From NCBI RefSeq assembly GCF_017357825.1, contig NZ_CP046072.1, positions 1,860,001 through 1,924,000 of the forward strand: a stretch of 64,000 bases of DNA, in the 5' to 3' direction. The notes beneath the pieces were generated by a model, which worked only from the letters and a program-made list of their open reading frames with translations, was not told where the DNA came from and did not search any database. How positions within the stretch are numbered: the first letter of the stretch is position 1; each line of letters begins with the position of its first letter. A program made the translations under genes and the position numbers. This document shows, piece by piece, positions 446 to 17,351 of this stretch. The DNA is from Sulfurimonas aquatica (GTDB lineage Bacteria > Campylobacterota > Campylobacteria > Campylobacterales > Sulfurimonadaceae).

Positions 446-477
446 ATTGTAACAACTACTTGTGACAGCTTGTGTCA
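446..477 (-). promoter_or_regulatory. Operator/promoter 1 of the island regulon
   Basis: Read leftwards, 477-463 is TGACACAAGCTGTCA, a perfect TGACA-N5-TGTCA inverted repeat. It is followed after 11 nt by a TACAAT -10 (451-446). It serves the partial gene at 1-419. The operator sequence is identical to the copy at 12854-12868. No -35 hexamer is evident, and the palindrome covers the place where it would be. Confidence 0.8.
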
Positions 478-487
478 TAAACATAAA

Positions 488-519
488 TGACGCAAGCTGT
501 CATTTTATCTGAGTATACT
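488..519 (+). promoter_or_regulatory. Operator/promoter 2 of the island regulon
   Basis: TGACGCAAGCTGTCA at 488-502 has one mismatch in the left half-site. A TATACT -10 follows at 514-519, again 11 nt away. It drives the small gene at 548. The two operators in this divergent region face opposite ways, and their asymmetric CAAGC core follows the direction of transcription. Confidence 0.8.
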
Positions 520-547
520 TTTTATAGTTCAAATAAAGGGAGAAGAA

Positions 548-742
548 ATGAATATATTATTTACCATATATATTGTTTCATATGTTCTAGTTGAAATGGA
601 TTCTGTTAAACGCCATAAAATGTTTTATTTTCATAGAGCTTGGAAAAGGTATGATCATAGTAGTTTAATTTTTTATTTTCGTATGCTTATATTAATATTA
701 CTTTTCCCATTATTTGCATTATTGGTTATTTTCGACATATAA
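548..742 (+). CDS. Small membrane protein, unknown function
   Basis: A 64-residue protein with an AAGGGAGAAG ribosome binding site ending two bases before the ATG, and a full operator/promoter module at 488-519. The sequence has a hydrophobic N-terminal stretch (about residues 2-16), a basic middle rich in Lys, Arg and His (about 19-38), and a strongly hydrophobic C-terminal helix (about 42-63). That predicts one or two membrane segments. Small membrane proteins in regulated accessory loci are sometimes membrane-acting effectors or anchors, but nothing here shows that directly. The good ribosome site and dedicated promoter make it a convincing gene despite its size. Confidence 0.65.
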   Translation: MNILFTIYIVSYVLVEMDSVKRHKMFYFHRAWKRYDHSSLIFYFRMLILILLFPLFALLVIFDI

Positions 743-772
743 AAAATGTTTAAAGATTTAGCATCTTAGATA

Positions 773-804
773 TGACATAAGCTGTCACTTTTATCTACTA
801 TAAT
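773..804 (+). promoter_or_regulatory. Operator/promoter 3 of the island regulon
   Basis: TGACATAAGCTGTCA at 773-787 is a perfect inverted repeat. A consensus TATAAT -10 follows at 799-804, 11 nt downstream. It drives the two-gene unit at 832-2976. Confidence 0.85.
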
Positions 805-831
805 TCATATATAAATACTAAAGGAGAAGGA

Positions 832-1197
832 ATGCTTGATATCAGAGCAATAGTATATTTTGATAAACAGATGAATCCTAATGGAGGCTGGGGTAATGAA
901 GACAATTGCTTATATTTAAATTTGAAATCCTTTGGAAGAGATTGGGGAGAGTTTAACAATTCATATGATTTTATAGAACATAGTCCATGTATGCTTGACA
1001 ATCGATGTGATATACCTGTAGATGAGTTTTTATCCATGGTTGGCTCTACACATGAAGAGGCTTATCAAAAACTTTTACAGATTATGCCGCATCTAAAAAG
1101 CAGACAACCTCTCCAGCAGAGTGTTGTTCTAAAGTTTTACGAAGAGTTAAAAATAAATACTATTAAAAAAGTAACCTTACAATTATGGGAAACTTAG
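832..1197 (+). CDS. Hypothetical protein, first gene of regulated operon
   Basis: A 121-residue soluble protein with a very strong AAGGAGAAGG site immediately upstream and the operator/promoter at 773-804. The N-terminal half is rich in Gly, Trp and Asn (around residues 15-45), and the C-terminal half looks helical. No family is recognised. It is followed after 33 nt by the helical-repeat gene at 1231, which has its own AAGGAGAAG site, so the two are very probably co-transcribed and may act together. Confidence 0.7.
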   Translation: MLDIRAIVYFDKQMNPNGGWGNEDNCLYLNLKSFGRDWGEFNNSYDFIEHSPCMLDNRCDIPVDEFLSMVGSTHEEAYQKLLQIMPHLKSRQPLQQSVVLKFYEELKINTIKKVTLQLWET

Positions 1198-1230
1198 TCA
1201 TAAAAATTCGATTATACACAAGGAGAAGTT

Positions 1231-2976
1231 ATGGGACATGGTTGTTGCAATGAGATACTAACGCATAGTGATAGAGTTTATGCTCTCAAAGAAGCGAACG
1301 AACTCGCTATTAGGATTGCTGATGAGATGACACAAGAGAATTATCATATATTTGTAACACGGGACTACTATAACAGAAAAGTGCATTGGAGGATGGCCGA
1401 AGGTGCTAACTTGGATAATAACTGGATAACTTACATAGCCATTAAAAAGAACTATGGTCTTGATGTTTTCATACATAGTAGCGATGAAAAGATTAGAGCT
1501 GCAGTTGGAGCACAAGGTTACCAATCTTCTGTACTTATTAATGATAAAAGTGCCTTAGTTCGTGCTGGAGTGGCACAGTCTGGATATGATCTAAAAAAAC
1601 TTATAAATGATGAAGAACCGGTAGTGCGTTGTGCAGTGGCGAAACAAGGTTACGGTCTTGATATATTGATAAGCGATGAAAACGATAGAGTACGTCGTAC
1701 GGTGGCCGAACAAGGATATAAAACTGAGATTTTAGTAAATGATAAAAGTCCAAGTGTCCGAACTGGTTTGGCAAAATCAGGATACGAGCTCAAAACCCTC
1801 ATGCTAGATGGTGATTCTAATGTTAGTCGTGCAGCAAGAGAGGAGTCTCTTAAAAAGATAGTCCATTGTGAGAACGATGAGGAAGCACTAAAAGCACTTA
1901 CATATATTGTGAATTTACCGCCTATCTCAGATGTTAACATTCCAGGACTTTGGCTAAACAATATGGTTATAGATGAAGATATAGCCATTGACATTATAAA
2001 TAAAGGGTACTGTTTGTCGTACTTTATCAATAGTAATAGCTCAAAAATAAGAGCTACTGTTGCCAAACAAGGGTATTGTTTAGATGTATTGATAAATGAT
2101 AAAGATCCAAAAGTACGTAGCGAGGTCGCTAAGCAAGGGTATGGACTTGATATACTTATTCATGATGAAGATTATTGGGTGCGTGTTGATGTTGTAAAAC
2201 AAGGCTATGGTCTAGACATTTTAGTAAAAGACACATCCTCTCAAGTTCGTGAGTGTATCGCCGATCAAGGTTATGGACTAGACATTCTACTCTACGACAA
2301 AGACTATGATGTTCGTAAAGCAGTCGCACGACAAGGATATGGGCTTGATACATTGGTATACGACGAAAATGAATATGTACGTGATGAAGTAGCTAGACAA
2401 GGATATCGCCTTGATATACTAGTAAAAGATAAAGATAGCTATGTAAAAAAAGCTGTGATTTCTCAAGGATATTGCTTGGAGAATCTTCTTTACGACAAGG
2501 GATATGGTGTTTCCAGTGATGCTTTAGAAGTAATTGCAGAGCAAGCCTCTAATATGAACGAAGTAGTAAAAATAGTTGACTCCGTTATGCAGACCATTCC
2601 TGATTTTATTGAAAAACTTCATGAAACAACTTGCATAAATCTGATGAATATGGGATTTCCCTTGAGCTATTTCATGAAACACAAACATCGATATGTCATT
2701 AATGCACTTGTTGATAGAGGATATGAACTAAAGACCTTTATACACGATGATAATTATCAAACTAAACAGTTTGCAATTCGTAAATTATTAGACAGTTGTA
2801 AAGATGCAGATGAAGTTACAGTAATTGTTAAAGAAGCTTTAAAAGTTGATTCTAATTATATGAATAAAATTGGCCTGGATGATTGCACCAAATTCATAGA
2901 CAAAGGATGTCCTTTGAAGTACTTTTCAAACAGCCGCTATATAACTATTCAAGATCTAATAAGAGCTCAACTGTGA
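1231..2976 (+). CDS. Helical-repeat protein with 22-residue HEAT/LRV-like repeats
   Basis: A 581-residue protein built largely of degenerate repeats of about 22 residues, with the pattern QGYGLDxLxxDxxxxVRxxV. One block covers about residues 60-205 and a second, more regular one about 265-430, with diverged copies beyond. The Val-Arg, Val-Ala, Gly-Tyr and Leu-Asp positions recur as in HEAT or variant leucine-rich repeats, suggesting an alpha-solenoid for binding protein or nucleic acid. The first 60 residues, including an HGCCNE segment, are not repetitive. No signal peptide or catalytic motif is visible. It forms an operon with the gene at 832, and its stop codon overlaps the next operator at 2974. 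The role is unknown; a scaffold or recognition function is inference. Confidence 0.8.
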   Translation: MGHGCCNEILTHSDRVYALKEANELAIRIADEMTQENYHIFVTRDYYNRKVHWRMAEGANLDNNWITYIAIKKNYGLDVFIHSSDEKIRAAVGAQGYQSSVLINDKSALVRAGVAQSGYDLKKLINDEEPVVRCAVAKQGYGLDILISDENDRVRRTVAEQGYKTEILVNDKSPSVRTGLAKSGYELKTLMLDGDSNVSRAAREESLKKIVHCENDEEALKALTYIVNLPPISDVNIPGLWLNNMVIDEDIAIDIINKGYCLSYFINSNSSKIRATVAKQGYCLDVLINDKDPKVRSEVAKQGYGLDILIHDEDYWVRVDVVKQGYGLDILVKDTSSQVRECIADQGYGLDILLYDKDYDVRKAVARQGYGLDTLVYDENEYVRDEVARQGYRLDILVKDKDSYVKKAVISQGYCLENLLYDKGYGVSSDALEVIAEQASNMNEVVKIVDSVMQTIPDFIEKLHETTCINLMNMGFPLSYFMKHKHRYVINALVDRGYELKTFIHDDNYQTKQFAIRKLLDSCKDADEVTVIVKEALKVDSNYMNKIGLDDCTKFIDKGCPLKYFSNSRYITIQDLIRAQL

Positions 2977-3005
2977 CACAACCCGTCACTTTTCTCCATT
3001 ATAAT
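2974..3005 (+). promoter_or_regulatory. Operator/promoter 4 of the island regulon
   Basis: TGACACAACCCGTCA at 2974-2988 has one mismatch in the right half-site and overlaps the stop codon of the preceding gene. A consensus TATAAT -10 lies at 3000-3005, 11 nt away. It is the likely promoter of the 3113-9381 operon with the STAND gene. Confidence 0.8.
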
Positions 3006-3040
3006 TTACATATAAACACTTAAGGATTACAGACCAGTAA

Positions 3041-3092
3041 GCTCAAATGAGCCCACAACAAATAACTTAGAAAAAATGTGTCGCTAAGTTAT
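3041..3092 (+). other. Structured 5' leader (two inverted repeats)
   Basis: The leader between the -10 at 3000-3005 and the ATG at 3113 is about 100 nt, much longer than those of the other island genes. It contains GCTCA/TGAGC (3041-3045 with 3048-3052; the 2-nt spacer means the innermost pair would have to open) and a perfect 9-bp stem ATAACTTAG/CTAAGTTAT (3062-3070 with 3084-3092, 13-nt loop). There is no U-run after the second stem, so a simple terminator is unlikely. It may control translation or mRNA stability, or encode a small RNA. Confidence 0.4.
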
Positions 3093-3112
3093 ATAACTTC
3101 AAGGACAATGAT

Positions 3113-4291
3113 ATGACATTACAAGAACAGATAATAAACACGCTACTACAATCAAAAAGGGATTTTTATATTCATGAGGCATATATAGGTTATGGTAACT
3201 TTGGACAGACGGGTAAACTTTACCATGTAGATTGCAATAAACAAAAAAATTACAATGGAAACCAACTGCTAGCTGAGCCAAATGAAGATTATAGACCATC
3301 AATGAGCCTTGTTGCTAATGATGACATTTATGGTCATCTGTTTGGGAAAACAAGTTTTTCATCAGAAGAGGAAAAAAATTCTGAAATAAAGCGGATATTG
3401 GAAGCGAGTGGATTTAAAAACCGAATGAATAATAGAGTCAAGATGGAGGAAGAGATAGGAGACTACCTTGATAAACTAGAGAGTAAAAAACAAGCAGAGA
3501 TAATTTTAAAAGCCAATGGAGGATTAGTAGAGATTCCTTTAGAAAAAATATATCATATTGGTATAAGTATAGAAAATGAACTACACACTATATGGCATCA
3601 AAGGGATGACGAAGATCGTTTGTCCATAGAAAGATTTAAACTTACATGTTCTGATGATGATTTCATACAAAGATATAGCCTTGATAATCCAGCTACATTG
3701 GAGGAACATATAAAAAACACTATTGCAGCTGTAGGAAAAGATGTTTTTCTAAATAATATTATCGATGATAATGACTATAGAGTATCTCTTATTGAAAAGT
3801 TTTTAGAAGATGAAGACATATACAGCTTACTACAAAGTATCTATACTCATGTCAACTCTCAATTAGTAAAGGGACTAGAAAGAGACTTATTAGGTGAACA
3901 TAGAACTATTTCTTTTTTAAACCAGTTTAGCGTTCCATACGACAAGATTAAAAATATACATGCTAGAGCTCGAAGTGGCTATCCATGCATAAAGGCTCAA
4001 ACTCGTAAACATCCAAATGGAATAATTAACGTTAATAGTTGGGCTGCTGCAATGATGAACACTGGTTTAAAAGTTCATGTAAATGCTCAAAGTGTATATA
4101 GAAAATCTAAAGAAGAGGTATTGGAAATAGTTAAACCAATGGCCATAGAGCATTTTAATAAACGTAAAATCTTGACGGATGGGATTATCTCTTATAGGTT
4201 CTATGATTTGTTTGAGCACTACTTTGAAATATCACTAGACGAGTTGGGCTTAGAAGTGCTAGCTACGACTAAGGAAAACTCAGATGACTAG
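3113..4291 (+). CDS. Hypothetical protein, first gene of the STAND operon
   Basis: A 392-residue soluble protein with an AAGGA site (3102-3106) seven bases before the ATG, downstream of operator 4. The N-terminal 60 residues are aromatic- and Gly-rich (IGYGNFGQTGKLYHVDCNK). A charged helical stretch follows at about 85-130, and a basic region near 290-340 contains INVNSWAAAMMNTGLKVHVN. I recognise no family. Its 3' end overlaps the 93-residue gene at 4284 by 8 nt. Conservation with the STAND gene would indicate a three-component system; that link is inference from the operon layout. Confidence 0.75.
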   Translation: MTLQEQIINTLLQSKRDFYIHEAYIGYGNFGQTGKLYHVDCNKQKNYNGNQLLAEPNEDYRPSMSLVANDDIYGHLFGKTSFSSEEEKNSEIKRILEASGFKNRMNNRVKMEEEIGDYLDKLESKKQAEIILKANGGLVEIPLEKIYHIGISIENELHTIWHQRDDEDRLSIERFKLTCSDDDFIQRYSLDNPATLEEHIKNTIAAVGKDVFLNNIIDDNDYRVSLIEKFLEDEDIYSLLQSIYTHVNSQLVKGLERDLLGEHRTISFLNQFSVPYDKIKNIHARARSGYPCIKAQTRKHPNGIINVNSWAAAMMNTGLKVHVNAQSVYRKSKEEVLEIVKPMAIEHFNKRKILTDGIISYRFYDLFEHYFEISLDELGLEVLATTKENSDD

Positions 4292-4565
4292 GCTAGGCAA
4301 CATAATGAAAGCGCAACAAGAATTAAAAATGATACTTGAAGATTTGTCTCCAGATAACATAGGTGAGACTACAGCCAATAATCTCAATGAATTGTTTAGT
4401 GTGTTTAACGATGCTTACATTTTAAGAAGTAAAAATGGAAAATATGAACTTAAAGAGATAGAAGAGATATATGAAAAATGTTTTGTAATTCTCAAGAGAG
4501 AGTACAGTCGAAAGTTTATCTCTTGTATGGCTACTACGATGATGTTCCAAGAGAAAGAAGAATAG
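4284..4565 (+). CDS. Small hypothetical protein between 392-aa gene and STAND gene
   Basis: A 93-residue, mostly helical and acidic protein. Its ATG overlaps the end of the previous gene and is preceded by AAGGA; an alternative in-frame ATG at 4302 would remove six residues. The only cysteines lie in the C-terminal half. No domain is recognised. The overlap with the upstream gene suggests translational coupling. The STAND gene follows after about 105 nt, so the product could be an adaptor or an inhibitor of that protein, but this is speculative. Confidence 0.65.
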   Translation: MTRLGNIMKAQQELKMILEDLSPDNIGETTANNLNELFSVFNDAYILRSKNGKYELKEIEEIYEKCFVILKREYSRKFISCMATTMMFQEKEE

Positions 4566-4671
4566 TTTATACTATTTTCGGTAGTATTTCACTACAAGAA
4601 TCAATTATAAAAAACAAATAATAAGAAAATATCAATGAATGAAGTGGCTATAAAGCTTAATGAGGAATCCA

Positions 4672-7600
4672 GTGAACAATACAAAAACATTTAGACTATT
4701 TATATCATCAACTTTCAGTGACTTCCAACTTGAACGTCGAGTCTTACATGAGAAGGTCTTTCCAGAGATAGACAAGCATTGTACGGAACAAGGATATCAG
4801 TTCCAACCCGTTGACCTGCGCTGGGGTGTTAACAATGAAGCACAACTTGATCAAAAAACTCTAGAGTTATGTCTCAACGAAGTTCGTGCTTGTAAGCACT
4901 TCCCTCATCCAAACTTTCTTATAATGCTCGGAAACCGTTATGGATGGGTATCTCTTCCTTATGCTATTAAAAAGAGTGAGTTTGAGAGTATCCTAGACTT
5001 TTATACAAATAACTCTAGTGCTCTTCAACTATTAAATGAATGGTACATCGAAGATAGCAATCATCTCATAGAAGATTTACATGCCTATGTACTAAAGCCG
5101 AGAGAACCTAAAGGAGCATATGCAGACTGGCAAGATTGGGAAAAGCTAGAGAATGAACTTCGTGCACTTCTTCAAGATGCCGCCAATGCACTTTTCAAAG
5201 GAACACCACAATATACCAAATACTTTCTCTCAGCCACAGAAGCAGAAGTCCAAGAGGGGATATTCAAGTATCTTCAACCTACCAAGTTTCAACTAGAAAT
5301 GCAAGAAGAATATACTGAAATCTCTGAAATCGATCAGGACTATGTCTATGGATTTGTCCGTAGCATCAACGATCATGAAACAGCAGACCTTTCAAACGAA
5401 CCTGCAAAGTCATTCATCGACAAAGACCAAACAAATGTCACTAACTTTAAAAAAGAACTTATTGAAAATACCCTAAATAAATCTAACCTTCTTCCAGCAG
5501 ATGTTACCCTCAGTGGGGATATAAATAACCCATTCACAGATAAGAGCTATCTTTTAGAGTTTGAGACCTTTATGATAGATAAGCTCAAGCTTGCAGTAAA
5601 TAAACAGATAGCAGAAGCACAAGAAATCTCACAGCTTACTCAAGAGAGAAGTGAGCAGCAAAGATTTCAGAGTTTAAAGACAAAGGTCTTCTTTGGAAGA
5701 GAAGAAGAATTAGAAGTAATTCAAAAGTATATAGATAGTGACAATACTCAACCTTTCATTGTCCATGGTGTCTCAGGCATAGGTAAGTCATCATTTATGG
5801 CTAAAGTAATTGAGCAGACAGAAGAGGCACTAATATATACAATTGCTGATCGCTTTATTGGTGTTACTTCATCCTCATCAAACACGAGAGCATTACTAGA
5901 GTCTCTAATCAATGACCTTGCGGCACAAAAAGTTCTAGTACTACCAGAGACTTTAAAACAAGATAATAATCAATTCAACCAACAAGTAAAAGAACTTCTA
6001 CTAACAATAGAAAAGCCTACAGTGATAATACTAGATGCTCTAGATCAACTTCAAAACAAAGACTACTTACAGTGGCTACCACTTGAGTTACCCTCAAACC
6101 TAAAGATCATTCTCTCTATGTTAGATCAAAAAGGGTATGAACATTACTATGACCTTTTAAAGAATAAACTTGATAAAAAAAACCAACTAAATATCGAAGC
6201 ACTAAATGATGCTGCTGCAACACAGACACTCAAAAGCTTACTTAAAAAAGAAAAGCATTCACTAACACCACAGCAGTTTGAGTATACACTTGAGAAATTT
6301 AGAGAAAGTAAGAGTTCTCCACTTTACCTCAAGATAGCATTTGAAGAGGTAAAGACATGGAAGAGTACGGATACAAATGAAGAACTTAGAGTTGGTATAC
6401 AAGAGGTTATAAAAGAGTTTATTGACAACCTCACTGAAAAATACCACCATTCCCCAAAAATAGTACATAAACTTTTAGGACTTATATACGCATCCAAAAA
6501 TGGTCTGAGTGAAAAGGAAATACTTGACCTTCTAAGCCGTGATGAATCAATACTTACTGATCTTGAGGAGTTTAATAAACTTGACCTCACTATAGATGGT
6601 GAGACAGTACGACGATTTCCCATCTCAATATGGGCAAGACTGCATGAACAGTTAAAACCTTTTATCAATGAGAGAACAATTGATAATCAAAATCTCATAT
6701 CATTTTTCCACAGACAAATAGATGAAGCAGTACATAACTGTATATATAAAGAGAATTCTCAGCTGTTACATAAAGAACTAGCCGATTACTTCTTGACACT
6801 GCAAGATAAAGATAAACTTTGGGATAAACGCTATTACAATCTTCACATGTTGGAAGAGACTCCATACCAACTCTTTCATGCAAAAGATGGCAAAAGACTA
6901 AAAGAGATTCTGATTGATCTTGAATTTTCTGGAAGTGTTTATAATAACCATAAGGAAGAGACCTTTACAGAGGTACTCGAAAAAGCTGTAGAAATTGATG
7001 GTATTACTGATGATGAGATTGACTCATGGAAAAAGTTTTTTCTTGAAAAAGCACACCTTATTACTGGGGTGGATGGAATTAACTGGAGGGCTAGTCAATC
7101 TTTGTTTCAGTTAGCTTATGAAGATGGAGACAACTCTCCTCTAAGCCATAATGCAGAACAGCTACTTGAGAAAGATAGAGTAGATTTTTTATGGTTAAAA
7201 AAGAGGAATAGACCTAAAAAGTTTAAAAGAACTGGATTGTTAAAGGTTTTAGAGGGGCATTCTGATACTATATTTGGTACAGAAATATTCAAAGATGGAA
7301 GGATACTCTCTTATTCAGTAGATAATACCTTAAGACTATGGGATTCTGAAGGTGAGCCTTTAAGAATTTTAGAAGGGCATACCAGTGCTGTAAAGGGTGC
7401 AAAGATTCTAGAAGACGGAAAGATACTCTCTTATTCACGAAATGAGACTCTGAGACTATGGAGTTCTGAAGGTGAGGCTTTGAGAATTTTAGAAGGGCAT
7501 ACTTATATTGTAAGCGGAGTAGAGATTCTAGAAGATGGAAGAATACTCTCTTATTCTGCTGATAATACTTTAAGACTCTGGAGTTCTGAAGGTGAGGCTT

Positions 7601-9381: not shown

Positions 9382-9430
9382 TTATTTAAATAAATGTAAT
9401 CACTTTAGGAAAAATAAATAGAAAACCTAG

Positions 9431-9665
9431 TCAGCACTCCATGCATACTTTGATATGGAAGCACCCATTGCTTCAATTGCGGCTGCCATTTACATTTTAG
9501 CTTTTTGAGATAAGATGGGTGGAACAACCGAAGAGGATAAAGAGCTTTGGAGTGAGTCCACTCAAAACTGCTGAAGATAGAGATTTATTAGAAATAGTTG
9601 AAGATAGAATTTCAAGGAAACACCGATTCGCAACACAAAAAAATGCTAAAGAGGCAATGAAATAG
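9431..9665 (+). pseudogene. Gene remnant, possibly IstB-like (IS21 helper)
   Basis: No intact gene lies in the gap 9382-9762. One frame from 9431 reads SALHAYFDMEAPIASIAAA, then a TGA stop (9506) and further sequence. The +1-shifted frame from about 9531 reads FGVSPLK followed by EDRDLLEIVEDRISRKHRF and ends with TAG at 9665. The last stretch resembles the DFG...RRDLLEIIEDR region of IstB ATPases. This suggests a decayed insertion-sequence gene with at least one stop and one frameshift. The match is short, so the family call is tentative. Confidence 0.35.
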
Positions 9666-9762
9666 TAAAAAGCATTCTTCCACTCTCTCTCAATTATGCT
9701 ACAATTTAAAAGCTTTTTATAAAAATATAATTAGTCAAGTATATTTTTATTAGGATTAGAGA

Positions 9763-10287
9763 ATGAAAGATATTATAGAAATCAATTTGAAGAAATATGA
9801 AGATGCATTTAATGAATTTGAATATTTTAAGACCAGTGAAGTACGAAGATTAAATCCAGATTTAATTGAATATATAGATGATATACTAAGTGAAAATGGA
9901 CTAAATAATAAATTAAAGATCATAGTATATATAGATGAAAAATACGACAAGTCACAAGTTGAAAAAATCAAATCTTCCCTAAGTAGAATTTATAATAAAA
10001 AAGAAGCTGAACTTAAAAAAGAGAGAGATGAGAACTTAAAAAAAGGAATTATCTATTTAATAATTGGATCTACGATGTTAATCGCATCAAACTTAATCAA
10101 TAAAGAAACAGAATTACTAAAAGAAATATTTTTAATTGGAGGTTGGGTATTTGTTTGGGAAAGTTTTTATTCAGTTATATTCGAATCAATGAAGATATCA
10201 AATATAATTAAGAAATATAAAAAAAGAGATGATATCTTAGATAATAATATTGATATAAAAACTGAAATGTCTAAAGATATAAATTAA
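9763..10287 (+). CDS. Hypothetical membrane protein
   Basis: A 174-residue protein. A charged N-terminal domain (1-100) ends in a Lys/Glu-rich coiled-coil-like stretch. It is followed by two adjacent hydrophobic segments, about 102-118 (IIYLIIGSTMLIASNLI) and 124-144, and a basic C-terminus. It therefore looks like a hairpin membrane protein with both ends on the same side. TTAGGATTAGAG lies before the ATG. Unlike its neighbours it has no TGACA-N5-TGTCA operator. Codon use is extremely AT-rich. No family is recognised. Confidence 0.65.
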   Translation: MKDIIEINLKKYEDAFNEFEYFKTSEVRRLNPDLIEYIDDILSENGLNNKLKIIVYIDEKYDKSQVEKIKSSLSRIYNKKEAELKKERDENLKKGIIYLIIGSTMLIASNLINKETELLKEIFLIGGWVFVWESFYSVIFESMKISNIIKKYKKRDDILDNNIDIKTEMSKDIN

Positions 10288-10342
10288 TAATTAGCATTTC
10301 AAATGGCCATTGTTAAGAGCTTTTATTATTTTAAGTATAGTC

Positions 10343-11653
10343 GGTAGTGTTCAATAATCTGTGTCAGTATCGAGTAATTCCTAAAATTGTATCATAAATT
10401 AAGAGCTTTATCTAATCTCCCCTCAAAGTGAATTGAGAGTTGAGAGATAGTTAAGCTCCAGTTTCTAACTGGCATAGTCCATTTTTTTGAGGCATTCTGG
10501 ATGCCCATATAGAGTAATTTTAATAAGCTATTATCATTAGGGAAAGCACCTTTAGTCTTAGTCAGTGTTCTGAACTGTCGATGCACAGACTCAATGATAT
10601 TGGTGGTATAGATTACTTTTCTAATATCAGCTGGATATTTAAAATATACAGACAGATTATCCCATTTATTTCTCCAAGAAGTAAAAACGATTGGATATTT
10701 TTTACCCCATTTTTCTTCAAGCTTATCGAGTTCAATTTCAGCTTCTTCTTTCGTAAAGGCTTGATAGACTTTCTTCAACTCTTTTGCGAACTGCTTTTGA
10801 TTAGCGGAACCTACATATTTAAGTGAATTTCGGATTTGATGAACAATACAGAGTTGTACTTCTGTGTCAGGATAGACTGAGTTTATGGCTTCAGGAAAGC
10901 CTTTTAAACCATCAACGGAAGCGATGAGTATATCTTTAACACCACGATGAGATAAATCAGTAAGTACCTGTAGCCAGAACTTAGCACCTTCACTCTCATT
11001 GAGATAGAGACCAAGTATCTCTTTCTTCCCATCAATGCCGACACCGAGAACGGTATAAAATGCTTTTGAGATATATCTTCCATCCTCTTTTACTTTATAG
11101 TGAATCGCATCTAAAAATATAAAAGGATATACTTCTTCAAGAGGACGAACTTTCCACTCTTGAAGCATAGGTATTATTTTATCTGTTACTGTACTGATTG
11201 CACCCTTAGAAAAGCCTACACCGTAAATATCTTCGATAAGCTTTGCTATTTGAGAGTAGCTGTTACCATGAGAGTAAAGAGCAAGTATTTTATCTTCTAT
11301 CTCACCTGACATAGTTCGTTGATTTTTCTTTACAATCTCAGGCTCAAAACTACCACTACGGTCTCTTGGAACATCAAGTTCAAATTCACCATGTTCACTT
11401 TTCATAGTTTTAGTGGCATAGCCATTTTTACGGTTCTTTGAGATATCTTGTGTTAAATGGGAATCTATTTCTGCGGAGAGAGCAGCTTCTGTAAGTTGCT
11501 TTATTAAAGAGCTTAATGCTCCATCTTTACCACTGATACTCTTACCAGCCTTTATATCACGAGCAAATTGCTCTGCATCTATTTCTATCTTCATCTGTGT
11601 GTCCTTGAGTAATTGTTATTTTACCCGATTGACACAGATTTTTAAACGGTCCC
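10343..11653 (-). mobile_element. IS256-family insertion sequence, copy 1
   Basis: A 1311-bp element with imperfect terminal inverted repeats (GGGACCGTTT... at the right end and GGTAGTGTTC... at the left end, both running into TCTGTGTCA). The 8-bp target duplication GTATAGTC lies at 10335-10342 and 11654-11661. It carries one transposase gene read leftwards. It inserted 18 bp upstream of operator 5. The duplication differs from that of copy 2, so this is an independent insertion. Confidence 0.95.
10392..11594 (-). CDS. IS256-family (mutator-type) transposase, copy 1
   Basis: A 400-residue transposase that catalyses cut-and-paste or copy-out transposition with a DDE catalytic triad. Family signs are FLDAIHYKVKEDG (first Asp), LIASVDGLKGFPEAI (second Asp), VQLCIVHQIRNSL, and the C-terminal TTNIIESVHRQFRTLTK segment with the catalytic Glu. 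The length is typical of intact IS256 transposases. The sequence is identical to the copy at 15620, so both elements are probably functional or very recently so. Confidence 0.95.
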   Translation of the reverse strand: MKIEIDAEQFARDIKAGKSISGKDGALSSLIKQLTEAALSAEIDSHLTQDISKNRKNGYATKTMKSEHGEFELDVPRDRSGSFEPEIVKKNQRTMSGEIEDKILALYSHGNSYSQIAKLIEDIYGVGFSKGAISTVTDKIIPMLQEWKVRPLEEVYPFIFLDAIHYKVKEDGRYISKAFYTVLGVGIDGKKEILGLYLNESEGAKFWLQVLTDLSHRGVKDILIASVDGLKGFPEAINSVYPDTEVQLCIVHQIRNSLKYVGSANQKQFAKELKKVYQAFTKEEAEIELDKLEEKWGKKYPIVFTSWRNKWDNLSVYFKYPADIRKVIYTTNIIESVHRQFRTLTKTKGAFPNDNSLLKLLYMGIQNASKKWTMPVRNWSLTISQLSIHFEGRLDKALNL

Positions 11654-11671
11654 GTATAGTCTTATAGAAAA

Positions 11672-11703
11672 TGACAGAACATGTCATCTATCTAATTTAT
11701 ACT
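11672..11703 (+). promoter_or_regulatory. Operator/promoter 5 of the island regulon
   Basis: TGACAGAACATGTCA at 11672-11686 is a perfect inverted repeat. A TATACT -10 follows at 11698-11703, 11 nt away. It drives the Dsb-like gene at 11735. IS copy 1 ends only 18 bp upstream but leaves the site intact. Confidence 0.85.
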
Positions 11704-11734
11704 TTATGTATTAAAAATAAAAGGTATATATACT

Positions 11735-12277
11735 ATGAAAAAACTTTTTTTACTTTTTTTACTATCATTAAATATTTTCGCTCTAGAAAAGCTAAATATT
11801 AATGACTCAAGCTTATCAGATGACTCCCAAGCTCTGTTAGAATCTATATCTAACTATGCCATTAAAGTTGGCAATGGATCTTTTTGTAAAACTTATATCT
11901 TTATAGATCCAATGTGCCCATATTCTCAAAAATATATCCAGCAAATCACTAAAAACAAAAAGGCTCAAGAAGTAAACAGCTATTATATATTTTTATATAA
12001 ACTACCGAAGTTTAATTCAAATAAGTTATTGCAACATATCTACCAATCATCTAATCCAGTTGAAACGCTTAAAAAGGTAATGATTAAGCATCAAGATGTC
12101 AACTTAGATGAAGTAGTAATAGATGCTGATATACAAACTAAGATTAATAGCATCGCCAGTGTCGCTTCTAGTCTCAAGATCACTGTACGTCCATATGTCA
12201 TGGCGTTTCAAAAGGGATCAAAATACTGCACAGTCTCCTCTGGCCCTGCTCCTTGCTTAGAAGAGAATGACTTCTAA
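11735..12277 (+). CDS. Periplasmic thioredoxin-fold (DsbA/DsbC-like) protein
   Basis: A 180-residue protein with a clear N-terminal signal sequence (residues 1-17, KK followed by Leu/Phe-rich core, cleavage after FALE or nearby). The thioredoxin-like region has FIDPMCPYSQ with Cys61 in a CPYS motif instead of CxxC, and a cis-Pro loop TVRPYV later in the chain. Other cysteines are at about 51 and two near the C-terminus. This suggests a thiol reductase or isomerase-like protein of the periplasm that would act by a monothiol mechanism or simply bind. AAAAGG lies upstream of the ATG. It is controlled by operator 5, which is unusual for a housekeeping Dsb gene. Confidence 0.75.
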   Translation: MKKLFLLFLLSLNIFALEKLNINDSSLSDDSQALLESISNYAIKVGNGSFCKTYIFIDPMCPYSQKYIQQITKNKKAQEVNSYYIFLYKLPKFNSNKLLQHIYQSSNPVETLKKVMIKHQDVNLDEVVIDADIQTKINSIASVASSLKITVRPYVMAFQKGSKYCTVSSGPAPCLEENDF

Positions 12278-12402
12278 TAATAAAGCGGAATAATATTTTA
12301 AATTTAAAAGGTTGAGAGTAAGATTCATAATATTGCTCTTCTATCAAATAAAATAAAAGTGTTTCTTTTGGAAAACACATCGGTCGAGAAAGAAATGAAG
12401 TT

Positions 12403-12702
12403 TTATGAAAGTTGAAAAATTACTTCTCTAATAAAATTAATATCCTTCTTATTTAACTTCTTTGTATCTATAGTTAAAACTCCATGTGCTAAAAAGCCTC
12501 CATACTCTTCTTCATAAGTTCTATAGCCATTAACTTCTAGTTTTACTTGTGGGATTTTCTGTCTTAGAATTGGGTAGACACTATCAACTAATTCACCAAC
12601 TTCCCATGGCTCCATATCCATATTGATGTGCAAAATAGTATCTCCCACATCGTAATTAAGCTCTTCTAAAAAAGACTCTATACTTATGATTAAACTAGCC
12701 AT
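12403..12702 (-). CDS. Hypothetical protein, operator-controlled
   Basis: A 99-residue acidic soluble protein read leftwards. It has an alternating hydrophobic pattern (SLIISIESFLEEL, then VKLEVNGYRTYEEEYGGF) that suggests a small alpha/beta domain. The ATG at 12702 is preceded by AAAGA-type sequence. The promoter with operator 6 lies at 12775-12806. It is convergent with the Dsb-like gene and divergent from the VirD4-like gene. No family is recognised. Confidence 0.6.
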   Translation of the reverse strand: MASLIISIESFLEELNYDVGDTILHINMDMEPWEVGELVDSVYPILRQKIPQVKLEVNGYRTYEEEYGGFLAHGVLTIDTKKLNKKDINFIREVIFQLS

Positions 12703-12774
12703 GTTCTTGTCTTTTCTTTCATATCTAATCCTTTACATTATTTGTTTTAACTCAAAGAGCAACTTCTAATTTAG

Positions 12775-12806
12775 AGTATAAAATATAGAGATGACAGGTT
12801 ATGTCA
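12775..12806 (-). promoter_or_regulatory. Operator/promoter 6 of the island regulon
   Basis: Read leftwards, 12806-12792 is TGACATAACCTGTCA, a perfect inverted repeat. TATACT follows at 12780-12775 after 11 nt. It serves the gene at 12403-12702. It forms the second divergent operator pair of the island, with operator 7. Confidence 0.85.
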
Positions 12807-12853
12807 CTTTACAAATTTGCAATGAACTATATAAGTCTATATAGTTCTCAAAA

Positions 12854-12885
12854 TGACACAAGCTGTCACAACATCTAAATATACT
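12854..12885 (+). promoter_or_regulatory. Operator/promoter 7 of the island regulon
   Basis: TGACACAAGCTGTCA at 12854-12868 is a perfect inverted repeat identical to operator 1. TATACT follows at 12880-12885 after 11 nt. It drives the VirD4-like ATPase gene and probably the WYL regulator gene behind it, which would make the regulator autoregulated. Confidence 0.85.
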
Positions 12886-12915
12886 CTTTTCATGAACCAA
12901 CAAAAAGGATAAACA

Positions 12916-14544
12916 ATGGCTAACATGGGTTTTATACAAACAAGAGAACCAGAGACTTGTTTAGAAGATCTAATAATGGTTCCAGAAACATTTACTCACT
13001 CTATCGCGTTTGGACAAACAGGTTGTGGAAAAACATCTAGCTTTATCTACCCAAATCTTAAAAATAGACTTGAGCTTGGACATGGGATTTTAGTTTATGA
13101 CTACAAAGGAAAAGAGCACTTTAGTGTTAAAGTTTTAGCAGAGTCTCTTGGTAGACTTGATGATGTAGTTGAGATAGGAAAACCATGGGGTAAAAGTATA
13201 AATATAATTCAAAATATGGATGAGGACGAACTAGACAAATTCTTTTCAAATATATTAAGTCATGGTAAGGATGGTAAGTACTGGGAAAACAGTGCTAAAT
13301 CACTTGGACAAAGTGTACTAAAGGTTTTAAAGTCTGTAGAGGACTTTTGTATAGAGTACGAATCAATTGAAACTGATGAAAAAGAAAGATCTGCACTGAA
13401 GTCAAAAATATCGGTTCCAACAAAAAAAACTATTGCTTCTTTAGTAGAAATTTGTTCTACTTTTGAAAATCTATGTGACTTTATAAATAAACTCGAAAAA
13501 ACTCAGCGACATATGGAAAACCTGATAGAGGAGAGCTTACAAAAGAATTTAAAAGAGACCCAAGATATTAAGTTGTTAAAACAAAAATACACAAGACTAA
13601 TACGAGAAAAAGAGAAGTTTAAAACTGTACTAGAGGATACTCAAGTTTCCTTAGATAGCTTTGGTAAGGACTCAAATGAAAATCTCACTCAAAATATCAT
13701 GGGTTCGTTAATCTCTCCATTAGTGAGTCTTTCACAAAATATTATGTTTAATACTAATTCATTCGACATTGCATCAGCTTTAAACCAAGGTAAGATCATC
13801 GTTGTAAATGTAGAGTCTATGTCTGATGTTGTAGTGGAAAGTTTAAACAACACCATACTTTATGAACTAAGCAAACGCACAAATAAGATGAACCTGCATC
13901 CCATCTCTATATTTATAGACGAGATTCAAAGAGTAGTAAGTAAAAACTCTGACTTGCCTATAGATGTTTTTAGAGAGGCAAAAGTCGACTTAATACTTGC
14001 TACTCAAAACTCTGCTCTACTTAAAGATAAACTTGAAGATGAAAAGTTTGAAGCTCTAATGGGAAATCTAACCCAAAAATATTACTTTAAAAGTTCTAGT
14101 GATGAAGAGATAAACTCTATAAACGAATTAAGAGTCCTAGAAGGTTTCGAGTATCTTTGCTCAAGTGATGACTATTCTAAAGTTCAGTGCTCTACTCCAA
14201 TATTTATAACAGAATCTGAAAAACTGAAAATAGAGTATAAATATCAAAAAGAACTTAAAGTACTATTTCATTTTTTATATGTGCAACAAGATAAACCTTA
14301 TGTACTAAATTATGACGCGAGACTTTTTAAAAGTAAGAAAGTGATTGCAATAAACATCAAAACATTCAAAGAAAGTATAGAGGATTCAATGTCCCACTAT
14401 GATTATTCAGATCTCTCTTGTGAAGTCGATTTTTTATTTAAGAAAACAATGAAACTTATGGATAAATATCCTTCTGTTGAGATTGATAAGAGCAGTTTAC
14501 TTTTAGACTCTATGGATTTTGAAGAGGAACTTCGCATAGTATAA
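12916..14544 (+). CDS. VirD4/TraG-like P-loop ATPase without membrane segment
   Basis: A 542-residue ATPase. Walker A FGQTGCGKTSS lies at about residues 32-42, followed by ILVYDYKGKEHF as in coupling proteins. Walker B ISIFIDEIQRVV lies at about 330-341, and LILATQNSALLKDKL beyond it matches the sensor region of TraG/VirD4 proteins. A charged helical insertion of roughly 60 residues lies near 195-255. Unlike conjugative coupling proteins it has no N-terminal membrane helices, and no relaxase or type IV secretion genes are nearby. A role as a DNA translocase or pump in a defence or mobile-element system is more likely than conjugation; this is inference. The WYL regulator follows after 61 nt. 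Confidence 0.85.
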   Translation: MANMGFIQTREPETCLEDLIMVPETFTHSIAFGQTGCGKTSSFIYPNLKNRLELGHGILVYDYKGKEHFSVKVLAESLGRLDDVVEIGKPWGKSINIIQNMDEDELDKFFSNILSHGKDGKYWENSAKSLGQSVLKVLKSVEDFCIEYESIETDEKERSALKSKISVPTKKTIASLVEICSTFENLCDFINKLEKTQRHMENLIEESLQKNLKETQDIKLLKQKYTRLIREKEKFKTVLEDTQVSLDSFGKDSNENLTQNIMGSLISPLVSLSQNIMFNTNSFDIASALNQGKIIVVNVESMSDVVVESLNNTILYELSKRTNKMNLHPISIFIDEIQRVVSKNSDLPIDVFREAKVDLILATQNSALLKDKLEDEKFEALMGNLTQKYYFKSSSDEEINSINELRVLEGFEYLCSSDDYSKVQCSTPIFITESEKLKIEYKYQKELKVLFHFLYVQQDKPYVLNYDARLFKSKKVIAINIKTFKESIEDSMSHYDYSDLSCEVDFLFKKTMKLMDKYPSVEIDKSSLLLDSMDFEEELRIV

Positions 14545-14605
14545 ATATTTTCAAGTATTTAGAAGTAAAATTTAACTATCCTACTATTAAAAAAATGGAG
14601 ATGAG

Positions 14606-15538
14606 ATGGAAGGAAGTGACCACGATAAATATTTATCAAGAATAAGCTTAATGATGGACTATTTAGCTATAAATGGACCTACTCATATGAAGGTTTTAGC
14701 CGAAGAGTATGGAACTTCTGAACGTACAATTAGAAGAGACATTGATGAAAGGCTTCACTTTTTTCCAATAGAGATAAAAAGAGGGATTGTTACTCTAGAA
14801 GAAGGCTTTAACTTAGATGACAAATCCCTTAGAGAAAATGAGCTTCTTATTACAGAATTAGCGTTAAATAGTATAAAGGGCATTGACGAGGTAGTGGACA
14901 AAACTCTTCACACTGTTAGAGCAAAGCTTTCATACCCACTTTTTTTTAGCCCGTATAATCTTAAAGCCGAACTCTATGAACCTATAAATATGAACTCCGA
15001 ACTATTAAACAAAATAGAAGACGCTATCACTAATCGTAATGTCTCTAGTATCAAAAGTAATGATTTAACATCATCTATAGACCCTTATAAGGTAGTTGCC
15101 TTTGATGGTATCTGGTACCTATTTGCAAAAGATAGAAATGACATGAAAATAAAAACCTATTTAATTTCAAATATACAAGAATTTCGAGCGTCAACAAAAG
15201 TATACTCAACTACACATGTTAATACAGATGAACTTTTAGAAAACGTACATACAGCTTGGTTTGAAGATGGCAATAGTTTTGATGTAACTGTTAAAGTTAA
15301 AAAAGAGATTGCTCACTACTTTGAACTAAAAAAACACCTTTCATCTCAGGAAATTATAAAAAAGAATGTTGATAGTTCCATCATCGTTAAGTTTAGTGTT
15401 AGCTGTGATGAAGATGTGGACAACCTCATTAAAGCATGGCTACCACACATAGAAGTAATCAAGCCTGAAAGATTTAGAAAAAAACTTATCAGTGAACTTG
15501 AATTATATGTAAAAGAGTTAAAAAACTATACTCTTTAA
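14606..15538 (+). CDS. WYL-domain transcriptional regulator
   Basis: A 310-residue protein with an N-terminal DeoR/HTH_11-type winged helix (about residues 10-60, GPTHMKVLAEEYGTSERTIR). A WYL domain follows, centred near 150-195 and containing the signature GIWYLFAKD, then a C-terminal WCX-like extension to 310. WYL proteins bind nucleic-acid or nucleotide ligands and control many phage-defence loci (BrxR and CapW are studied examples). TGGAGATGAG precedes the ATG. It lies 61 nt after the ATPase gene without its own promoter, so it is probably transcribed from operator 7. It is the only recognisable DNA-binding regulator in the island and the best candidate for the TGACA-N5-TGTCA sites. Confidence 0.9.
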   Translation: MEGSDHDKYLSRISLMMDYLAINGPTHMKVLAEEYGTSERTIRRDIDERLHFFPIEIKRGIVTLEEGFNLDDKSLRENELLITELALNSIKGIDEVVDKTLHTVRAKLSYPLFFSPYNLKAELYEPINMNSELLNKIEDAITNRNVSSIKSNDLTSSIDPYKVVAFDGIWYLFAKDRNDMKIKTYLISNIQEFRASTKVYSTTHVNTDELLENVHTAWFEDGNSFDVTVKVKKEIAHYFELKKHLSSQEIIKKNVDSSIIVKFSVSCDEDVDNLIKAWLPHIEVIKPERFRKKLISELELYVKELKNYTL

Positions 15539-15560
15539 TCTAATAGCTGAAGTTTTATCT

Positions 15561-16871
15561 GGGACCGTTTAAAAATCTGTGTCAATCGGGTAAAATAACA
15601 ATTACTCAAGGACACACAGATGAAGATAGAAATAGATGCAGAGCAATTTGCTCGTGATATAAAGGCTGGTAAGAGTATCAGTGGTAAAGATGGAGCATTA
15701 AGCTCTTTAATAAAGCAACTTACAGAAGCTGCTCTCTCCGCAGAAATAGATTCCCATTTAACACAAGATATCTCAAAGAACCGTAAAAATGGCTATGCCA
15801 CTAAAACTATGAAAAGTGAACATGGTGAATTTGAACTTGATGTTCCAAGAGACCGTAGTGGTAGTTTTGAGCCTGAGATTGTAAAGAAAAATCAACGAAC
15901 TATGTCAGGTGAGATAGAAGATAAAATACTTGCTCTTTACTCTCATGGTAACAGCTACTCTCAAATAGCAAAGCTTATCGAAGATATTTACGGTGTAGGC
16001 TTTTCTAAGGGTGCAATCAGTACAGTAACAGATAAAATAATACCTATGCTTCAAGAGTGGAAAGTTCGTCCTCTTGAAGAAGTATATCCTTTTATATTTT
16101 TAGATGCGATTCACTATAAAGTAAAAGAGGATGGAAGATATATCTCAAAAGCATTTTATACCGTTCTCGGTGTCGGCATTGATGGGAAGAAAGAGATACT
16201 TGGTCTCTATCTCAATGAGAGTGAAGGTGCTAAGTTCTGGCTACAGGTACTTACTGATTTATCTCATCGTGGTGTTAAAGATATACTCATCGCTTCCGTT
16301 GATGGTTTAAAAGGCTTTCCTGAAGCCATAAACTCAGTCTATCCTGACACAGAAGTACAACTCTGTATTGTTCATCAAATCCGAAATTCACTTAAATATG
16401 TAGGTTCCGCTAATCAAAAGCAGTTCGCAAAAGAGTTGAAGAAAGTCTATCAAGCCTTTACGAAAGAAGAAGCTGAAATTGAACTCGATAAGCTTGAAGA
16501 AAAATGGGGTAAAAAATATCCAATCGTTTTTACTTCTTGGAGAAATAAATGGGATAATCTGTCTGTATATTTTAAATATCCAGCTGATATTAGAAAAGTA
16601 ATCTATACCACCAATATCATTGAGTCTGTGCATCGACAGTTCAGAACACTGACTAAGACTAAAGGTGCTTTCCCTAATGATAATAGCTTATTAAAATTAC
16701 TCTATATGGGCATCCAGAATGCCTCAAAAAAATGGACTATGCCAGTTAGAAACTGGAGCTTAACTATCTCTCAACTCTCAATTCACTTTGAGGGGAGATT
16801 AGATAAAGCTCTTAATTTATGATACAATTTTAGGAATTACTCGATACTGACACAGATTATTGAACACTACC
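15561..16871 (+). mobile_element. IS256-family insertion sequence, copy 2
   Basis: A 1311-bp element that, in the parts I compared, is identical to copy 1 but inverted. The 8-bp target duplication TTTTATCT lies at 15553-15560 and 16872-16879. It inserted into the last codons of the TerB-like gene at 17234 and 22 bp beyond the stop of the WYL gene. Confidence 0.95.
15620..16822 (+). CDS. IS256-family (mutator-type) transposase, copy 2
   Basis: A 400-residue transposase whose protein sequence is identical to that of copy 1. It has the same DDE landmarks (FLDAIHYK, LIASVDGLKG, IESVHRQFR) and full length. GGACACACAG lies before the ATG. The identity points to recent transposition within this genome. 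Confidence 0.95.
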   Translation: MKIEIDAEQFARDIKAGKSISGKDGALSSLIKQLTEAALSAEIDSHLTQDISKNRKNGYATKTMKSEHGEFELDVPRDRSGSFEPEIVKKNQRTMSGEIEDKILALYSHGNSYSQIAKLIEDIYGVGFSKGAISTVTDKIIPMLQEWKVRPLEEVYPFIFLDAIHYKVKEDGRYISKAFYTVLGVGIDGKKEILGLYLNESEGAKFWLQVLTDLSHRGVKDILIASVDGLKGFPEAINSVYPDTEVQLCIVHQIRNSLKYVGSANQKQFAKELKKVYQAFTKEEAEIELDKLEEKWGKKYPIVFTSWRNKWDNLSVYFKYPADIRKVIYTTNIIESVHRQFRTLTKTKGAFPNDNSLLKLLYMGIQNASKKWTMPVRNWSLTISQLSIHFEGRLDKALNL

Positions 16872-17234
16872 TTTTATCTCTTCAAATATGGCATATTCTT
16901 TATCGACTATGCCGTCGCAAACAATAACACTATTTATATAATGAAGTATTTTACTTTTAACTTCATGATCTTGTTCAAATATACTATCTAGTTTTTGTAA
17001 TTCTAAATCAAACTCTCTATTGTCATTTTTTACTTCTATAAATAATTTAACGACTTCATCTACACTCATCTGAAAATTCTGTTGATAAAATTCTAAAAGC
17101 TTTTTCTCTTCTTCAATACTCTTTTTTTCGTCAGCTAGAATCACTTTTATTAGTAATACAGCCAGCATATTTTTAATTGCATCTATATTTTTATAGTCAT
17201 CAAACACATCTACTGTACTTAAATAAGGCAACAT
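16857..17234 (-). CDS. TerB-like protein, 3' end replaced by IS insertion
   Basis: A 125-residue protein resembling TerB/tellurite-resistance helical bundles: ILADEKKSIEEEKKLLEFY in the first half and VIVCDGIVDKEYAIFEEIK in the second, the paired acidic helices typical of the family. TerB domains bind metal and occur in many stress and phage-defence systems. IS copy 2 cut the gene at its last codons. Removing the IS and one target copy restores an ending ...EEIKLQLLD and a stop, so only a few residues were swapped for SVQ. The product may still fold. No operator lies upstream. Confidence 0.7.
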   Translation of the reverse strand: MLPYLSTVDVFDDYKNIDAIKNMLAVLLIKVILADEKKSIEEEKKLLEFYQQNFQMSVDEVVKLFIEVKNDNREFDLELQKLDSIFEQDHEVKSKILHYINSVIVCDGIVDKEYAIFEEIKGSVQ

Positions 17235-17319
17235 AATTATCCTTTATATTTATCTGTTTGTAATATTAGCAAAAATATATAAACTCACACTTTTATGAAC
17301 GAATTTCATTGCTATTATT

Positions 17320-17351
17320 TGACATATGCTGTCACAAACTAAAAGTAATAT
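17320..17351 (+). promoter_or_regulatory. Operator/promoter 8 of the island regulon
   Basis: TGACATATGCTGTCA at 17320-17334 is a perfect inverted repeat. TAATAT follows at 17346-17351 after 11 nt. It drives the amidohydrolase gene at 17377, the last island gene before the tRNA. Confidence 0.8.

Follow-up and report, generated by a model that had tools for sequence, protein, structure and literature searches.

Fixed-phase TGACA-N5-TGTCA promoters in an accessory island of Sulfurimonas aquatica: a probable activator-dependent regulon with a WYL protein as candidate reader

A 64,000-nt stretch of the Sulfurimonas aquatica genome (positions 1860001-1924000 of contig C1, hereafter the window) carries eight copies of the inverted repeat TGACA-N5-TGTCA in front of accessory genes, which raises the question of what these elements do and which protein reads them. 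The analysis described here indicates that, on balance, they probably belong to an activator-dependent regulon which numbers at least 16 promoters and which the WYL-domain protein encoded at 14606-15538 would control. Coordinates refer to the window unless a contig position is given; the whole genome (G000) comprises 2.845 Mb in two contigs.

A sequence-only reading of the window had described eight such operators, six of them perfect (at 463, 773, 11672, 12792, 12854 and 17320) and two with one mismatch (488 and 2974), and a pattern scan recovered all eight at these positions with the same division. Inspection of the sequence placed a -10-like hexamer exactly 11 nt past the downstream half in 8/8 sites. 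The direction of each unit is set by its core and its -10, and each of the two divergent regions carries two operators, as had been proposed. The operator-promoter units of the window, each given with its palindrome, spacing and -10 hexamer, are:

446-477, minus strand: TGACACAAGCTGTCA, 11 nt, TACAAT; reads left into a 452-residue AAA_5 ATPase gene whose orthologue has the unit in G140, G097, L102 and G013
488-519, plus strand: one mismatch, TGACGCAAGCTGTCA, 11 nt, TATACT; reads into the 64-residue open reading frame (ORF) 548-742
773-804, plus strand: TGACATAAGCTGTCA, 11 nt, TATAAT; reads into 832-1197
2974-3005, plus strand: one mismatch, TGACACAACCCGTCA, 11 nt, TATAAT; overlaps the stop codon of 1231-2976 and reads into 3113-4291
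11672-11703, plus strand: TGACAGAACATGTCA, 11 nt, TATACT; reads into 11735-12277 (thioredoxin-like)
12775-12806, minus strand: TGACATAACCTGTCA, 11 nt, TATACT; reads left toward 12403-12702
12854-12885, plus strand: TGACACAAGCTGTCA, 11 nt, TATACT; reads into the VirD4-like/WYL gene pair (predicted autoregulation)
17320-17351, plus strand: TGACATATGCTGTCA, 11 nt, TAATAT; reads into an N-formylglutamate amidohydrolase (FGase)-like gene with its ATG at 17377

Right of 18.1 kb the window holds no match with 0-1 mismatch, in agreement with the earlier claim, and the one-mismatch matches at 996-1010 and 3322-3336 lie inside ORFs and have no -10 at 11 nt. Matches with up to two mismatches numbered 37 in the window against 33.4 expected from shuffles. 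Since these are no commoner than in shuffled sequence, the signal resides in the perfect copies and their -10 hexamers.

The same holds for the genome as a whole, where the perfect palindrome occurs 13 times and the reversed pattern twice. When one mismatch was allowed the counts became 73 (the 13 perfect copies included) against 68, so the one-mismatch class showed no enrichment. For every one of the 13 perfect copies, a hexamer agreeing with TATAAT in 4-6 of its 6 positions stood at offset 11 on one side; agreement there averaged 5.15, compared with 3.31 at the best other offset in the range 3-21. A strict TAnnnT stood at 11 nt in 11 of the 13 sites, the remaining two having CATAAT and AATAAT. 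Ten of the 13 lie within 59 kb (contig 1818375-1877334, 2.1% of the contig) reaching left of the window, whereas 20,000 uniform simulations never placed more than 5 copies in any stretch of that length. The motif is therefore clustered rather than spread at random. A regulon of eight sites proved too small, with units continuing left to 1,807,936 on the contig, and confinement to this island too narrow, with 3/13 perfect sites outside it (1482012, 1621768 and 1622680). The best explanation is a regulon of at least 16 promoters of which the eight in the window are the right-hand part; the 16 good-score units are a lower bound, one-mismatch units having been scored only within 113 kb. The units beyond the window are, by contig position:

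1807936: one-mismatch unit before a Band_7/SPFH protein gene
1818375: perfect unit before an FtsH-like AAA-AAA-M41 protease gene
1835467: perfect unit before a truncated ORF only
1854298: perfect unit before the gene of a 179-residue protein
1856047: perfect unit before a second VirD4-like ATPase gene
1482012: perfect unit outside the island, before the gene of a 376-residue protein
1621768/1622680: duplicated perfect pair outside the island, before two genes for 152-residue proteins that are 99% identical

To what extent the arrangement is conserved was determined in 151 genomes of the same family and in the additional contigs L102, L105 and L106. The palindrome alone is unspecific, with at least one perfect copy in 121/151 genomes and up to 57 in a single one. 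The strict unit (perfect palindrome with TAnnnT at 11 nt) was found in 21/151 genomes with 49 occurrences, against 9 for the reversed pattern, which implies that some single strict-unit matches are due to chance; 12 of the 49 belong to S. aquatica, one palindrome there being counted in both directions. A position matrix built from the 13 perfect sites of S. aquatica gave 29 matches in 20 stretches of the relatives, compared with 1.4 expected from Markov shuffles. The 57 perfect palindromes of genome G025 were considered as a giant regulon and rejected, about 50 of them being one repeated core and 0/57 having a strict -10 at 11 nt. These roughly 50 perfect TGACAGTGACTGTCA copies, at G025:C1:1639881-1655459 (L100, L101) and spaced by about 312 bp, make up an extended tandem array that may lie within a repetitive gene.

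WYL orthologues 45-63% identical to the window protein were found by protein search in five of the 151 genomes (G107, G097, G079, G043 and G140), with weaker ones elsewhere, and a scan of named genomes for WYL loci returned seven, all of them Sulfurimonas, Campylobacterales or Helicobacteraceae metagenome-assembled genomes. When the loci of the five close orthologues together with L102, L105 and L106 were scanned with a palindrome-only matrix, blind to the -10, 34 oriented matches were obtained (two of them near-identical repeats in G140), and in 32/34 a -10 with at least 4/6 matches stood exactly 11 nt away, compared with 11/34 for the next best offsets. The unit also stands before orthologous genes whose order differs between genomes. 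It precedes the AAA_5 gene in G000, L102, G097 and G140 (62-66% identical) and in G013, the VirD4-like gene in G000 (twice), L102, G097, G140 and L106, the Band_7 gene in G000, G097 and G140 (71-80% identical), the FGase gene in G000 and G097 (68% identical), the gene of a 172-179-residue protein in G000 and G097 (44% identical), and that of an inositol-phosphatase-like protein in G140, G043 and L105 (83-87% identical). Among the 151 genomes, seven have the AAA_5 gene and four of these (S. aquatica, G140, G097 and G013) have the unit before it, the three without being the most distant (29-39% identity). The Band_7 gene has the unit in 4/4 genomes (S. aquatica, G097, G140 and G048), each time with one palindrome mismatch.

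These results bear on the simplest alternative, namely that the palindrome arose by chance or duplication at promoters of the ordinary kind, which were copied together with genes around the island and share no regulator. Duplication has taken place at least twice, in the pair 1621768/1622680 and in the pair 1835467/1854298 with its similar leaders. However, by eye no relationship is seen between the flanks of the remaining sites, operator and spacing are both retained in front of orthologues in other genomes whose proteins are 62-80% identical, and chance cannot explain the genome counts, the -10 phase, the matrix matches in relatives and the clustering. This alternative is disfavoured and we hold it to be very improbable. 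One co-ordinated promoter class with accessory genes as its targets, as first proposed, is upheld.

Does the palindrome switch these promoters on or off? If the -10 is taken as positions -12 to -7, the palindrome would occupy -38 to -24, with the downstream half TGTCA at -28 to -24. A unit would then consist of TGACA-N5-TGTCA, with a core that is mostly YAHSY, and a sigma70-type -10 that follows after exactly 11 nt. No -35 is recognisable, its consensus being matched in only 1-3 of 6 positions at the eight window sites. From this geometry the sequence-only reading had concluded that a palindrome covering the -35 suits a repressor, but the WYL regulators compared here point the other way. The palindromes of the repressor CapW are reported to overlap the -10 (PMC9122588) and R-BOX1 of BrxR is described as located downstream of the -10 (PMC9122601). 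A position at -26 to -35 is instead the layout of WYL activators: PafBC-dependent promoters are reported to carry tTGTCRgtg-8 nt-TannnT, that is TGTCR-N11-TannnT (PMC5656591), SiwR activation is reported to require its -26 region (PMC10693628), and DriD binds across the -35, its distance to the -10 being constant. In the proposed mechanism the WYL protein would act as a homodimer, and in its active state would bind the palindrome and, in the manner of DriD, PafBC and SiwR, keep the housekeeping RNA polymerase at promoters that are weak by themselves. Scattered accessory genes, including the WYL protein's own gene pair, would be switched on together.

A BrxR/CapW-like repressor of a defence island, with RNA polymerase blocked at the palindrome for as long as no ligand brings about release, has to be weighed against this mechanism. 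WYL repressors of that kind are known from defence islands, according to the reports on BrxR (PMC9122601) and CapW (PMC9122588), and where no -35 is needed a strong -10 may suffice, and such a promoter could be blocked by a repressor bound between -38 and -24. However, the operators here lie 11 nt upstream of the -10 and not on or downstream of it as those reports place the CapW and BrxR sites, and repression does not call for a fixed phase relative to the -10, whereas the distance is exactly 11 nt in 13/13 sites of S. aquatica and 32/34 of its relatives. Both the constant phase and the CapW and BrxR operator positions favour activation; the repressor reading is probably wrong and we give it a small chance.

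The protein proposed as the reader of the operators is the following:

14606-15538, plus strand: WYL regulator of 310 residues (Pfam, Foldseek)

It has the architecture helix-turn-helix (HTH)-WYL-WCX, with HTH_DeoR at residues 12-48, WYL at 134-194 and WCX at 226-299, all above the Pfam cut-off, and is the sole PF13280 match in its genome (E 0.001), which supports its earlier designation as the likely reader. The profile of its own family matched the sequence of PafBC in the PDB with 2.4e-6, DriD with about 2e-5 and BrxR with 0.033. Foldseek ranked DriD (7e-13) and PafBC (3e-12), with template-modelling (TM) scores of at most 0.37, above BrxR and CapW (about 1e-7); the alignment to DriD had about 16% identity and a TM score of 0.37.

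DriD, a homodimeric WYL activator of Caulobacter crescentus and the top Foldseek match, resembles the present system in several respects. It shares the HTH-WYL-WCX architecture. DriD has the target consensus ATACGAC(X)7GTCGTAT, and the probe ATACGACAGTAACTGTCGTAT used to test it contains GACA-N5-TGTC, so that the palindromic core GACA-N5-TGTC and the inner GAC-N7-GTC also occur in TGACA-N5-TGTCA, the predicted WYL target here. In addition to the -35 overlap and the constant -10 distance, the -35 is poor in both cases (1-2/6 at the DriD sites). In the published promoters of DriD the -10 is weak, and its distance judged by eye is about 9-11 nt, too loosely placed for a firm figure. On the other hand, the outer half-site bases are T/A here and C/G in DriD, the arginines of the RLDR segment of DriD are not conserved, and the predicted targets are accessory genes among which no repair gene was recognised. 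PafBC, the mycobacterial WYL activator that works by sigma adaptation, shares the TGTCR-N11-TannnT layout and the -26 element. It is a heterodimer in which PafB reads the -26 motif, whereas here a single WYL gene was detected in the genome and the perfect palindrome would suit a homodimer. SiwR, also mycobacterial, is a homodimer with a palindrome upstream of the -10 and a required -26 region, and differs in being described for an adjacent operon where a regulon of at least 16 promoters is proposed here. The repressors BrxR and CapW have in common with the present case an HTH-WYL regulator in an accessory or defence-type island and inverted-repeat operators; as reported, those operators lie on or downstream of the -10 and not at a fixed 11 nt upstream. 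In the open literature searched, no WYL regulon of this kind in Campylobacterota was found, which is no claim that none is in print.

Strict units and WYL genes tend to occur in the same genomes. In groups counted by hand from listings, a WYL match (E 1e-5) was present in 15/21 strict-unit genomes and in 51/130 others (p 0.008), and among genomes with at least two strict units the proportion was 11/12 compared with 55/139 (p 0.0005). In three genomes picked for their units, the 27%-identical WYL gene of G062 has a perfect unit immediately before it, that of G134 is flanked by units, and that of G052 shares a contig with two. The core YAHSY, a pattern chosen post hoc, was found in 11/13 WYL-linked strict units, in 0/9 linked to a response regulator described below (these nine including two near-identical pairs and two near misses) and in 1/12 linked to neither. 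It also occurs in 3/3 units of G043, whose WYL gene is on another contig, and in 8/12 of S. aquatica. It is quite likely that the WYL protein is the reader of the YAHSY sites.

Several observations weigh against an activator-dependent regulon run by the WYL protein. Campylobacter sigma70 promoters are reported to be generally without a -35 (PMC3847290), and the missing -35 as proof of activation was accordingly dropped; it is the constant phase, not the poor -35, that carries the argument for an activator. VIA-align tied DriD, BrxR, PafBC and CapW at Z about 12, and since the structure model is weak (predicted local distance difference test 73.7, predicted TM score 0.33) the fold comparison fails to separate activators from repressors, a point in favour of the repressor. 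The arginines by which PafB contacts single-stranded DNA (ssDNA) are absent: by a hand count on the alignment, R211/R214 of PafB correspond to L186/N189 of the window protein and both are kept in 0/17 aligned members. G107 and G079 have no unit by the strict pattern, their units having deviant -10s or imperfect palindromes; no unit was found on 40 of 43 kb of the WYL contig of G043; and a matrix scan around four WYL homologues 35-41% identical (G003, G009, G089 and G101) found none, the exact units of G003 and G009 being on contigs other than the WYL stretch. A unit lies near only 3/16 WYL genes of 26-31% identity, namely those of G062, G052 and G134, which were picked for their units, and near none of the 13 others. 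No WYL protein was found in G013 and G048, which have the unit before the orthologous AAA_5 or Band_7 gene, or in G055, which has it before a VirD4-like gene (completeness 95% for G048 and 89% for G055). The idea that a WYL protein reads the unit in every genome was not sustained, 6/21 strict-unit genomes having no WYL match at E 1e-5. Lastly, an OmpR/PhoB-type response regulator is encoded in the S. aquatica island and beside related units:

contig 1819906-1820598, plus strand: PhoB-type response regulator, divergent from its kinase
L014 18503-19783, minus strand: 7TMR-DISM histidine kinase in the same island, faced by a weak unit TAACAAATTTTGTCA-N11-TACACT

This pair could itself read and activate the sites, the WYL protein being a mere neighbour or the reader of a subset. 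A regulator 49-85% identical to that of S. aquatica accompanies a 7TMR-DISM-type kinase beside related units in G013, G055, G049, G099 and G009, such a pair is again close to VirD4-like genes in G013, G055 and G099, and G013 and G055 have it and no detectable WYL protein. In G055, G049 and G013 units spaced by 11 nt lie in the regulator-kinase intergenic region itself, and a weaker one lies before the S. aquatica kinase gene. Escherichia coli PhoB is reported to recognise half-sites of the form TGTCA (Pho box CTGTCAT-..-CTGTCAT), whose distance from the core promoter is strictly kept (PMC3465305, PMC10294691). According to the same reports, however, PhoB binds direct repeats, whereas the sites here are palindromes, and the cores of the regulator-linked sites differ as shown by the post hoc comparison above. 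Moreover, no close orthologue of the regulator was found around the WYL-linked islands in the stretches searched: the best match was 27% identical on the whole of contig C74 of G097 (59 kb), 25% in 120 kb of G079 and 34% in 699 kb of the 2.74 Mb of G140, including its island with 15 matrix matches, and 90 of the 90.6 kb of contig C59 of G107 held no close orthologue. The 34%-identical regulator of G140, at 1449-1451 kb, is paired with a kinase of its own, and no unit that reaches the usual quality is found next to it. We consider control of these sites by the PhoB-type regulator unlikely, though a serious contender. That regulator accompanies a sister promoter class, and some of the genomes concerned have no detectable WYL protein.

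The signal to which the WYL protein would respond is a further question. ssDNA or DNA damage was a first guess by analogy. In PafBC, as reported, mutation of PafB R211/R214 together with PafC R201/R204 abolished ssDNA binding and that of the PafC pair alone did not (PMC11804915). PafB R208 and Y196 are retained in the window protein as K183 and Y171. With the PafB-type contact arginines missing, ssDNA was downgraded from an assumed signal to a possible one. No LexA was detected in S. aquatica by a search for PF01726 at E 0.001, and the control matched in 10/14 genomes; Helicobacter pylori and Campylobacter jejuni are reported to lack lexA as well (PMC2912397).

Which genes would such a regulon control? 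A gene start was found for 15/16 units, lying 25-31 nt after the -10 in 11/15. The predicted targets in the window, with the gene paired with that of the WYL protein, are:

1-419, minus strand: start portion of the 452-residue AAA_5 ATPase gene, which continues left of the window
548-742, plus strand: the 64-residue ORF, no Pfam hit
832-1197, plus strand: 121-residue ORF, no family above cut-off
3113-4565, plus strand: two ORFs (392 and 93 residues), no Pfam hit
4660-9381, plus strand: 1573-residue AAA_16 NTPase with WD40 repeats (STAND/NLR-like), a possible distal target of the 2974 unit through a putative operon link
11735-12277, plus strand: 180-residue thioredoxin-like protein, Pfam match below cut-off
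12403-12702, minus strand: 99-residue ORF, no Pfam hit
12916-14544, plus strand: VirD4/TraG-like ATPase, directly upstream of the WYL gene
17377-18093, plus strand: FGase-like protein, 238 residues from this ATG; unit also before the G097 orthologue

Over the whole genome, the first genes behind units that have a recognisable domain encode AAA_5, two VirD4/TraG-like, FtsH-like, Band_7, FGase-like and, weakly, thioredoxin-like proteins, the rest being of unknown family. VirD4-like homologues stand behind a unit in the second S. aquatica copy and in G097, G140, L102, L106, G099, G049, G055 and G013, the palindrome being imperfect in G097, G140, L106 and G013. The island also encodes immune-type proteins, namely the 1573-residue AAA_16-WD40 protein, TIR-LRR, DUF4062-NTPase-TPR, DUF4062-NTPase-ankyrin and TIR-NTPase-WD40. 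None of these is the first gene behind a unit in S. aquatica; some, co-oriented downstream of units, could be operon members, and in G107 a DUF4062-NTPase-TPR gene and a homologue lie directly behind units. PADLOC gave no match for 5 of 10 island proteins and family-level matches only for the other five (both VirD4-like proteins to mad8, best 3.6e-9; FtsH-like to IetA, 7.9e-37; TIR-LRR to TIR families; WYL to WYL). Since these matches are at family level and the immune-type proteins are not first genes, a role of the targets in defence is something we infer.

Some features of the neighbourhood may be recorded here. Two identical inverted copies (100%) of a 1311-bp element, insertion-sequence-like by eye and with a 400-residue transposase ORF, lie at 10343-11653 and 15561-16871 and flank the cassette thioredoxin-like/99-residue/VirD4-like/WYL, so that the regulator cassette may be mobile or invertible. 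The 581-residue protein encoded between two operator units (1231-2976) has many short repeats by eye, HEAT-like by Pfam. Outside the island, the 152-residue, lipoprotein-like gene is tandemly duplicated (L018 9262-10695), each copy having its own perfect unit. The leaders following units 1835467 and 1854298 are alike by eye over more than 100 nt (L015 14591-15482, L016 13595-14313), and the short ORF after the 1835467 unit resembles the start of the 179-residue gene.

The initial observation is thus sound and the regulon larger than first noted; activation by the WYL protein is the best supported reading, with the PhoB-type response regulator as a specific rival. As a tentative proposal going further, a WYL activator subfamily undescribed in the literature searched, lacking the ssDNA arginine pair, may sense another ligand, and the module TGACA-YAHSY-TGTCA-N11-TAnnnT may drive a conflict system whose genes are dispersed (VirD4-like ATPase, AAA_5 ATPase, SPFH protein, FGase-like enzyme and FtsH-like protease, with NLR-like NTPases nearby) in a LexA-less lineage, while the response regulator might read a sister version of the module in related genomes. 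BrxR and CapW are local repressors of few promoters; if the activator reading is true, a multi-promoter, activator-driven programme would here serve many scattered accessory genes, in a group without the usual DNA-damage regulator LexA. The absence of the ssDNA arginines turns attention directly to the ligand of this WYL branch, and since the promoter module is exact enough for target prediction from sequence, accessory genes of unknown function in the relatives could be assigned to one programme.

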